This document shows positions 12,242 to 15,257 of a DNA stretch of 34,260 nucleotides, piece after piece (positions within the stretch are counted from its first letter, which is position 1; the number at the start of each line of letters is the position of its first letter). A program made the translations under genes and the position numbers. Origin of the DNA: Syntrophobacteraceae bacterium (GTDB lineage Bacteria; Desulfobacterota; Syntrophobacteria; Syntrophobacterales; Syntrophobacteraceae). The notes beneath the pieces were generated by a model, which ran no database searches, had not been told where the DNA came from, and worked only from the letters and a program-made list of their open reading frames with translations. The stretch covers positions 1 to 34,260 of the forward strand of contig JABUEY010000033.1 of assembly GCA_013314815.1 (NCBI GenBank), in the 5' to 3' direction.

Positions 12242-14356
12242 CTAGTAGCGGCCTTCGAGTCCTATCCGGAATGTCCTGCCCGGCATGGGATATCCGTCCA
12301 CGTAGGAGTAGGACCTGTCCGCCAGGTTATCCACCGCAAAGAAAACGTTCAGACGACGGTACGGACGATAGTTCAGGCGAGCGAAATACAGGCCGAACCC
12401 GCCTTTGCCGACGGCCTTCCCGTAATCCGGCGACATCCAGTCCCAGTCCTGGACCTCCTGGCGACCATGATACACAGCGGTGAACTGCAGATCCGCCTTT
12501 CGGTCGAAGTCGATCTGCAACCCTCCCGTCACGTTTGTCCTGGAAACGTAGGGCAGAATGTCGGTTCCCAGAGACTGGACGTACTTCCTGTCCTGGATCT
12601 CCCGCTGTGTGTAATACAGGAGTTCGGCAAAAGGAATGAACCGGATGACTCTGTCGCAGATGGTGACGGGAACCGGGTGCCTGAGATACACCTCGATTCC
12701 GGACAGGACGGCTCCCTGCAGGTTTTTGTAGGTCGTCCAGGAGCAGTCTCCATCGATACACGTGGGGAAACCGCCTGAAATGCGGTCGGTGTAATCGGTA
12801 TAAAAGAAACCCAATCCGGCGTTGAGCCGCCCGAACTCACCGTCGATGCCGGTTTCGTACGTTGTTGCGGTTTCCGGCTTGAGATTCGGGTTTCCGACGG
12901 TTTTTGCCCACGACTGTTCGTAGCGCCCTGCAAGTTCATCGGCGGCAGGGGCGCGAAAACCCGTACCCACGGCGGCTCGGGCATGCAACCGATCGAGTAT
13001 GGAGTACTTCACCCCCGCGCGCCAGCTCAGATGATCGAAGGTTTCCTCCTTCGAATGGACCGTCAATCCCTCGGTGGGTTCCAATGATTCCCGAAAATAG
13101 TCGTACCGGACTCCCAGCAGGAAAGAGAAACGGTTCCAGTCGATTTTTTCCTCGCCGAACACGGCATAGTTGTCGTAGCTGCTATTGGGATTGCCTGCCT
13201 GTCCAGGAGGTTTGGTGAAGTTGGAAACGCCTATGTTGTCGTAGTCAAATCCGAGCAGGAGTCTTCCGAGGTTCCAGGCAGGGAGACTGATCTGGCTTCG
13301 CACTCCTCGTGTTTGCGTTTCGGTGGTGCTGTTCAGATAACCCCACACCTTCCCGGGATCATTCCACGCACTCCTGTCGAATACGTCGTAGAAGCTGACG
13401 TGCCAGGAAACATCGGCATCCGGCAGTCCGCCGTCATAGGCAAACGATCCGTAGCGGCGAAGAACGTCCTTGTAGTCGTCAAAATCGGGCGCGTACGTGG
13501 GTCCCGGGTTTCCGACGTCCCATGCCCTGTAATAATGGCCTGTCGCAAAGAACTGGTGATTCGAAAAGGGAGCGGCATGAAAGCTGAGGGAATAGGCTTC
13601 GTCCTGGTACCCGGTGTTCTGAACCTTTGCACCTTCTCCCGAATCGTAATCGCCGCTGCGGGCATGTCTTGCCGTCATGGATATTCCGGCTCTGTCGTTC
13701 CAGAAACCCGAGGACAGCTTCGCCGTCGCCTTCAGTTGATCCCAGCTGCCGTATTCGACGCCGCCCCCGGCGGATGGATTTCCCCTGCCCTTGCGGGTAA
13801 TGATATTGACGACACCCCCCATGGCGGCGGATCCGTAGACAACGGAGCCGGGGCCTCGAACAATCTCGACCCGTTCTACGTTCTCGAGAGGAATAACGGC
13901 GATATTCCCGGTGCCGGCCCGGTGACCGTCGATAAGAACCGCCACGCGGCCCTTGATGTCGGTGCCGTGCGTATCGCTCGAGAATCCTCGGATCTGAACG
14001 GAAGTCAGTCCTCCGGGGTAGCTCTGGAAATGGCCGGGAAGTTCCTGGAGGAGCAGATCCGCAAGATCCTTCGCGTGGGATTTCTCGATCTCCTTCCTCG
14101 ATATCACTTCGGTGCGAACGGGAAGCTCCCTGGCCGACAAGGGATCACGGGTGGCCGTAACGACAATCTCGTCCATCCTGGCCTGTTCCGAGTGCTCTTC
14201 GGACCGTTCCTTCACCTGACGGTCGATGCCGGCCGGTTCTGTGACAACGGTCGTTTCCAACGCGGGATATGCCTCGGAATCCCTGTTTTCCACAGCTTCA
14301 AGCCACCCGGTGCCAGCAAAGAGAAACACAAGCAAAAGAAAGAAAACACGTTTCAA
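12242..14356 (-). CDS. TonB-dependent outer-membrane receptor, probably cobalamin/corrinoid (BtuB-like)
   Basis: A 704-aa outer-membrane gated beta-barrel that imports a ligand using TonB energy. A signal peptide (KRVFFLLLVFLFAGTGWLEA) is followed by the TonB-box-like DEIVVTATR at about 62-70. The plug domain (RVEIVRGPGSVVYGSAAMGGVVNIITRKG) leads into a long barrel ending in an aromatic residue (GLEGRY). The start is TTG 14356, seven bases after GGAGG; the frame upstream runs into the riboswitch leader. Cobalamin riboswitch signatures lie immediately upstream, so expression should fall when B12 is abundant, and the ligand is most likely a corrinoid. No BtuCDF transporter genes are visible in the window. 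Confidence 0.93.
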   Translation of the reverse strand: MKRVFFLLLVFLFAGTGWLEAVENRDSEAYPALETTVVTEPAGIDRQVKERSEEHSEQARMDEIVVTATRDPLSARELPVRTEVISRKEIEKSHAKDLADLLLQELPGHFQSYPGGLTSVQIRGFSSDTHGTDIKGRVAVLIDGHRAGTGNIAVIPLENVERVEIVRGPGSVVYGSAAMGGVVNIITRKGRGNPSAGGGVEYGSWDQLKATAKLSSGFWNDRAGISMTARHARSGDYDSGEGAKVQNTGYQDEAYSLSFHAAPFSNHQFFATGHYYRAWDVGNPGPTYAPDFDDYKDVLRRYGSFAYDGGLPDADVSWHVSFYDVFDRSAWNDPGKVWGYLNSTTETQTRGVRSQISLPAWNLGRLLLGFDYDNIGVSNFTKPPGQAGNPNSSYDNYAVFGEEKIDWNRFSFLLGVRYDYFRESLEPTEGLTVHSKEETFDHLSWRAGVKYSILDRLHARAAVGTGFRAPAADELAGRYEQSWAKTVGNPNLKPETATTYETGIDGEFGRLNAGLGFFYTDYTDRISGGFPTCIDGDCSWTTYKNLQGAVLSGIEVYLRHPVPVTICDRVIRFIPFAELLYYTQREIQDRKYVQSLGTDILPYVSRTNVTGGLQIDFDRKADLQFTAVYHGRQEVQDWDWMSPDYGKAVGKGGFGLYFARLNYRPYRRLNVFFAVDNLADRSYSYVDGYPMPGRTFRIGLEGRY

Positions 14357-14399
14357 CGTACATCCTCCTCTCCCCCCTCGGGGAACGTTGCAGGGTGTG

Positions 14400-14548
14400 C
14401 GCATCGCTCAGGTCTCCTGGCTCACGTTCGCTCTACTCACCGCGCCTTCCCGTCACGCATCGAGTGTGACAGTGGCATTCCTGCGGATTTCGTCCCGTTT
14501 ACAGTCGCGGGGCGGCGGAAGCCTTACACTTCCTTCCCTCGAAACGAT
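14400..14548 (-). ncRNA. Cobalamin riboswitch (proximal to TonB receptor)
   Basis: Read on the minus strand, the B12 box AGCCAGGAGACCTGAGC lies at 14422-14406. It is preceded by the conserved ACGGGACGAAATCCGC and GCCACTGT segments and, further upstream, by GAGGGAAG and CCGCGACTGTAA. The order and spacing match the AdoCbl riboswitch. Its 5' AGGGAA element is less canonical than in the distal copy. It ends about 45 bp before the TTG start of the receptor, close enough to mask the ribosome site. Confidence 0.9.
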
Positions 14549-14810
14549 GCGGAGTGTCTTTCTGTCATGCTGTTCCGTTGCCTGCCGTCATTTTATTCAC
14601 CCGTTGGCCATCCTCCTTTGCATGTTTTGTGTGAGCTTCCGTTCCCGCCATCTCCCCTGCAGGAACCCCCAAGAGAACGCTTAAAACACGGCGCAGACGC
14701 GAAATTCCCTGCGGAACAGGACAATGTGCGGGGTTTGAAACCGCCCGACGCCAGCAAACGGGCTGCCTAGAACGGTCGAGACGAATGCGCCTGGAGTCCA
14801 GCAAAAACGC

Positions 14811-14846
14811 AAAAAAAAATCCCTGGAGTCGAAAACTCCAAGGATT
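14811..14846 (-). terminator. Intrinsic terminator between the two riboswitches
   Basis: On the minus strand AATCCTTGGAGT (14846-14835) pairs with ACTCCAGGGATT (14829-14818) through one G-U pair around a five-base loop. Nine T follow (14819-14811). It begins about 70 bases after the B12 box of the distal riboswitch, where a riboswitch-controlled terminator would sit. Confidence 0.88.
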
Positions 14847-14909
14847 GCACCCTGATTTACTTGGTCCTTTAGGGGGTCACCGAGTATTTCCTCGTACCGA
14901 CAACCCATC

Positions 14910-15060
14910 AGCCGTCAGGCAGGTCTTCTGACTCACGGATCACCCTACTCTCCGGACCTTCCCGTCTCGCTTGCGCAAAACAGTGGCCTTCTCGGATTTC
15001 GTCCCCGTTAACAGCGGCGGGACCGTTCCCGAATTTCGCGGGATTCCCTTTTAAACCCGG
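14910..15060 (-). ncRNA. Cobalamin riboswitch (distal, followed by a terminator)
   Basis: On the minus strand the canonical elements appear in order: GTTTAAAAGGGAA (15056-15044), CCGCCGCTGTTAACGG, GGACGAAATCC, GGCCACTGT, then the B12 box AGTCAGAAGACCTGCC (14933-14918). It is more canonical than the proximal copy. No gene lies between its terminator and the second riboswitch. It could be an upstream gate of the same leader, an orphan that makes a short RNA, or the remnant of a lost gene's control region. Confidence 0.92.
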
Positions 15061-15257
15061 AGGTACCTGAAGCTTATGTCCACTGATCGTTTCTTTGTTT
15101 ACATCTACACCGCCCATGGCTGTTTTTCAATACAAATATGATCCACCGCGTTCTGTCGCCCCGCGTATGTCCTCCTGCCTGCTCTCCTCCACCCGGATCG
15201 GCACTCGACATCCGTTGATGCGGCCCATGACGAACCAAACGCAAAACAGATTCACGC

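Follow-up and report, generated by a model that had tools for sequence, protein, structure and literature searches.

Why two cobalamin riboswitches in series, with an intrinsic terminator and no gene between them, should precede a single TonB-dependent receptor gene is the question raised by this locus, which lies in a window of 34,260 nucleotides (the whole stretch of DNA that was analysed) from a member of the Syntrophobacteraceae. The earlier note had set three readings side by side: a two-stage gate, an orphan riboswitch yielding a small RNA, and the remains of a deleted gene. The first is the best supported, and with a probability of roughly 0.78 we take the arrangement to be a cis-acting two-stage ("bi-mechanism") OFF gate in which transcription attenuation would be followed by translation control before the receptor. 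This reading draws on the two aptamers, a terminator that covaries, a GAGG-loop hairpin platform at the Shine–Dalgarno sequence, the placement of promoter-like sites with no second promoter above chance, and a tandem layout that is conserved in relatives. The features are collected in Table 1.

Table 1. Elements of the receptor leader and gene, in order of transcription (positions in the window).
Feature	Position	Strand	Basis
Promoter-like TTGAAA-17-TAGATG, 16 nt upstream of distal aptamer	15102..15130	-	Score 7.3, p 0.10
Distal cobalamin riboswitch aptamer, with P2, transcription-type lineage	14901..15085	-	RF00174, 110.3 bits, E 4.9e-27; clusters with other distal aptamers
P13-like hairpin between aptamer and attenuator, loop CG(A/U)GGA conserved	14872..14906	-	Across leaders, read by eye
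Putative antiterminator AAGGA (14869-14865) / UCCUU (14844-14840), nearly invariant 20-nt apical loop	14840..14869	-	Leader comparison
Intrinsic terminator, 13-bp stem and T9	14811..14846	-	Sequence; covariation in 26 leaders
Untranslated spacer, no detectable gene or gene remnant	14563..14810	-	ORF, profile, protein and DNA searches
Shine–Dalgarno-like AAAGGAGG (14619-14612) and 11-codon mini-ORF, GTG 14600 to TGA 14565	14565..14619	-	Similar in relatives
Proximal cobalamin riboswitch aptamer, without P2, translation-type lineage	14390..14562	-	RF00174, 91.3 bits, E 1.3e-21; lineage tree
Possible start-codon-sequestering stem CAACGU (14390-14385) / ACGUUG (14359-14354)	14354..14390	-	Sequence
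GAGG-loop hairpin UUCCCC-GAGG-GGGGAG, abutting the Shine–Dalgarno sequence	14370..14385	-	Leader comparison
Shine–Dalgarno AGGAGG of the receptor gene	14364..14369	-	Sequence
TonB-dependent outer-membrane receptor, TTG start, 704 aa; likely cobamide receptor	12242..14356	-	Barrel 3.7e-42, plug 7.1e-24

That both elements are cobalamin riboswitches on the minus strand, as had been read from the letters alone, is borne out by the Rfam covariance model: each spans the full length of RF00174 (positions 1-189) and scores well above the gathering score of 31.5 bits. At that score the whole window gives just these two Cobalamin matches and one tRNA. The genome (4.06 Mb) contains eight cobalamin riboswitches in total, and by our estimate the chance that two of the eight would lie on the same strand within 340 nt is about 0.002; the recurrence of the pair in relatives dispels what doubt might be left about its reality. 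On a tree the distal and the proximal aptamers split into separate lineages, with mean identities of 74% among distal and 78% among proximal aptamers compared to 61% for the two aptamers within a leader. Two specialised types thus appear to have been combined, and a local duplication of one riboswitch was rejected on the same grounds. The proximal aptamer of the window is without the P2 hairpin that the Rfam Cobalamin model includes. The proximal aptamers form a lineage of their own, whose ligand preference may differ. Among the other riboswitches of this genome, L001, L002, L004, L007 and L008 have what look like terminator platforms, and the GAGG/RBS platform is found before two TonB receptors, the one in the window and one on contig C130.

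The first stage is defined by the attenuator that follows the distal aptamer. It had been described as a 12-bp stem with nine T about 70 bases further on; the T-run (14819-14811) was read correctly and so was the distance if counted from the B12 box (it is about 55 nt from the Rfam aptamer end), while the stem (14846-14818) has 13 pairs. In an alignment of 26 leaders, 98.3% of the cells are paired, double changes occur in 5 of 11 pairs and none of 500 shuffles reaches the score. Together with AAGGACCAAGnnAAnCnGGGTGCAATCCTT the terminator makes up an expression platform that leaders have in common. The AAGGACCAAGnnAAnCnGGGTGCAATCCTT core of this platform, allowing up to two mismatches, is present in 13 of 395 genomes of the phylum, and a cobalamin aptamer adjoins every matched locus that was scanned. 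Upstream of it, the P13-like hairpin is variable in its stem and constant in its loop when leaders are compared by eye. The pairing of the putative antiterminator helix AAGGA/UCCUU is consistent among leaders, yet its covariation is no better than that of shuffles. Its apical loop, CCAAGnnAAnCnGGGUGCAA (14845-14864 in the window and shared by 25 other leaders), is conserved far beyond what a simple loop would need, and could possibly be a tertiary contact or a protein site. When loops of the aptamer and of the platform were compared by eye for a mutual contact, no consistent complement emerged. We also considered a leader peptide right behind the distal aptamer, reading GTG ACC CCC TAA in the window and ATG AAC CGC TGA in Desulfoferrobacter suflitae; attractive at first sight, it was discarded as it is not kept in other leaders.

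The T-run is separated from the second aptamer by 248 nt, close to the 260 bp without a credible ORF that the earlier note had described. The mechanical ORFs of this spacer (54, 75 and 79 aa) have no credible Pfam relative, and DNA searches of 26 family genomes returned chance-level matches at most. Gene remnants above chance were found neither by tblastn with CbiK, CbiM and an 85-aa protein discussed below nor, for the latter family, by a profile HMM in all six frames. The analysis yielded neither of the results named beforehand as speaking against the proposal, namely a conserved ORF or its remnant at 14565-14810 in relatives, or only one riboswitch scoring as such. The mini-ORF beginning at GTG 14600, preceded by a strong Shine–Dalgarno sequence, may be a leader peptide or a relic. 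A Shine–Dalgarno sequence with a short ORF just upstream of the proximal aptamer is also seen in several other leaders (G010a, G010b, G022, G026, G017 and contig C130 of the same genome), and is present even where the 85-aa gene is kept.

This 85-aa gene is central to a rival reading, namely that a gene once controlled by the distal riboswitch, coding for the 85-aa protein and perhaps accompanied by cbiK, was deleted and the two riboswitches were left in series by accident. The protein family (MKKGMILYV...RLCG), without a Pfam or NCBIfam match, counts 28 copies, spread over 23 of 39 genomes from the order (L103:1025-1279, L126 at G000:C170:149-403, and L127-L152). Its gene comes immediately after terminator-type cobalamin riboswitches, and before cbiK in several genomes; of 20 loci scanned, 19 have a cobalamin riboswitch upstream, and at the remaining one the contig starts only just ahead of the ORF. 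A second tandem in the genome of the window has the 85-aa ORF between its two switches; this tandem extends across contigs C170 and C130, the ends of which share 148 bp at 99% identity. The relative G025 also has the ORF there, and in G033 the same place is occupied by the 85-aa gene plus a CbiK-type cobaltochelatase. No CbiK homologue was detected in the genome of the window, unlike in most relatives tested. A deletion is therefore conceivable as history, the 85-aa gene being kept at the paralogous locus and at two loci of one relative, but the gap contains no remnant of this gene, cbiK or cbiM, and the comparison with relatives points the other way.

The layout can be followed through orthologues of the receptor (54-58% identity), where all six family genomes that have one carry a terminator-type riboswitch upstream of the second riboswitch. 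Four of these six tandems are free of genes, the others being G025 and G033. In the receptor tree, which is small and has two forks open, the two gene-bearing loci are nested among gene-free ones, so that parsimony favours a gene-free ancestor. The nearest named receptor relative, that of D. suflitae (Syntrophobacteraceae, 58% identity), has both riboswitches and the same attenuator sequence, with about 26 nt from the first T-run to aptamer 2. The search for the same tandem in related genomes, which the earlier note had recommended, also brought up eight other same-strand gene-free pairs in six genomes of the order (one each in G009, G017, G022 and G026, two each in G010 and G005), and gene-free tandems precede unrelated receptors too. 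Among 32 other genomes sampled over the phylum, one contains a comparably close riboswitch pair. In one case (L093, G010:C1:2541078-2541709), the gene-free tandem is followed by short ORFs without a recognisable receptor and then by a gene that, judged by eye, resembles methylmalonyl-CoA mutase. The recurrence of the tandem makes a genuine double gate look likelier than debris, and the distal attenuator is intact in every gene-free case. We consider an accidental leftover rather unlikely; even if it were true, the receptor now lies behind both switches and the present function would be unchanged.

The second stage concerns the translation start of the receptor. As the earlier note had it, the second riboswitch leads into the TTG of the TonB receptor, at 14356 behind the AGGAGG; the ORF caller chose an ATG at 14404, upstream in the same frame. 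The protein matches the BtuB equivalog model NCBIfam TIGR01779 with 133.4 bits, below the cut-off of 599.7, and is filed in the broad TonB-dependent receptor family. It is the riboswitches that make it a probable receptor for vitamin B12 or another cobamide. A GAGG-loop hairpin with a stem of 5-7 bp stands against the Shine–Dalgarno sequence in all 12 leaders tested, no terminator-like site was found after the proximal aptamer in the window sequence, and pairing of the linker with the Shine–Dalgarno/start region is, for the leaders as a set, weakly above chance (Fisher p 0.035). In the window, the ACGUUG strand of the possible sequestering stem includes the start codon. Taken together, the hairpin, the linker pairing and the lack of a terminator make it probable that the proximal switch controls translation via the ribosome-binding site.

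In Gram-negative bacteria a block of translation in a leader can be coupled to Rho. It might hence be that the distal riboswitch with its attenuator is real while the proximal one also acts on transcription, for instance through Rho, or while the two do not act independently, and the fact that occlusion of the ribosome-binding site is deduced from a conserved hairpin and a weak pairing leaves some room for this. We nevertheless think it improbable in view of the missing terminator after the second aptamer and the position of the GAGG hairpin directly against the Shine–Dalgarno sequence in each of the 12 leaders tested.

A two-stage gate further implies that both riboswitches are part of one transcript. 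Counterparts of the promoter-like site, of the type TTGACA-17/18, occupy roughly the same position ahead of the distal aptamer in G009, G017, G026, G025a and G033 (p ≤ 0.01), compared to which the site of the window is weaker (p 0.10). Promoter scoring of the leaders of the window and its relatives detected no site of this kind above the chance level between the riboswitches. In D. suflitae the gap of about 26 nt is too short to hold another promoter, and the space in G005 is likewise scant or absent. This placement of promoter-like sites upstream of the distal aptamer only, and the tight spacing in D. suflitae, suggest a common transcript, although a non-consensus promoter may be present within the 248-nt gap of the genome of the window. 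The orphan riboswitch of the earlier note, a separate unit producing a B12-dependent small RNA that acts in trans like EutX/Rli55 while the receptor has its own promoter and riboswitch, could make use of such a promoter and of the terminated leader of about 285 nt that would arise anyway, but it appears very improbable given the gaps just described, the dependence of the receptor on read-through in the closely spaced D. suflitae leader, the location of the protein-binding hairpins of EutX beyond the riboswitch terminator (PMC5821096), where here the second riboswitch and the receptor are found, and, as a weak negative since control genomes gave no match either, the lack of a detectable ANTAR/EutV protein in the genome.

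According to the two-stage model, a single leader RNA would start just upstream of the distal aptamer and contain two cobalamin OFF switches, one behind the other, that work independently. With AdoCbl (or another cobamide) in ample supply, the distal aptamer would favour the intrinsic terminator and most transcripts would break off after about 285 nt, as short aborted leaders. Read-through transcripts would go on to form the second aptamer, which in its bound form would hide the ribosome-binding site or the start of the receptor gene behind the GAGG-loop hairpin platform. Receptor synthesis should in this way be shut off more steeply and for longer. It is the ligand, the OFF direction, the antiterminator pairing, the occlusion of the ribosome-binding site and the steeper, longer-lasting shut-off that we infer here from the sequence features. 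More speculatively, and in our opinion unlikely in this full form, Syntrophobacteria might join an attenuator-type and a P2-less RBS-type lineage of cobalamin riboswitches, possibly differing in ligand affinity or cobamide preference, with a translated mini-ORF as a graded control of cobamide uptake.

Cobalamin riboswitches have been predicted to act mostly on transcription in Gram-positive bacteria and on translation in Gram-negative ones, a view cited in PMC12121620. In the present locus a single leader seems to employ both mechanisms with two aptamer lineages, and the layout recurs before several uptake genes. Tandem riboswitches for the same ligand are established, and 26 AdoCbl doublets have been counted and classed as pseudo-cooperative in a survey that left out gaps of more than 300 nt (PMC9481103). 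Like the locus in the window, these doublets place two complete cobalamin riboswitches one after the other ahead of a single gene, with no ORF between. No bi-mechanism case is named among them in that review, which by its own account did not assess all tandems for mechanism, whereas in the window a terminator comes first and an RBS platform second, on distinct aptamer lineages. Our literature search, with limited coverage of subscription journals, found no bi-mechanism AdoCbl tandem, and within that coverage the combination of attenuator and RBS switch for B12 would be new, while same-ligand tandems and AdoCbl doublets are already known.

EutX/Rli55 resembles the distal element in being an AdoCbl riboswitch that has a terminator and is not directly followed by a coding gene (PMC5821096). 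EutX acts in trans by sequestering EutV, whereas the partner here, with no ANTAR protein detected (a weak negative), lies in cis as the second riboswitch and the receptor. The closest parallel in mechanism is the transcription-then-translation "bi-mechanism" tandem described for SAM-II/SAM-V (PMC9481103), where the first switch also precedes an intrinsic terminator, the second controls the ribosome-binding site, as the proximal one of the window probably does, and both recognize the same ligand; ligand and RNA class are different, and both aptamers of the window belong to the Cobalamin family. Serial riboswitches for one ligand are found in the same broad bacterial group with the tandem THI (TPP) elements upstream of thiSGHFE in Desulfovibrio, described in PMC545781, whose consulted passages report no tandem B12 elements; terminators follow both THI elements, unlike in the window. 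The same paper asked, for the tandem THI elements, what is gained from a second riboswitch that senses the same ligand, and this is a question that a simple reporter could address with the D. suflitae leader, which contains everything within about 0.6 kb.
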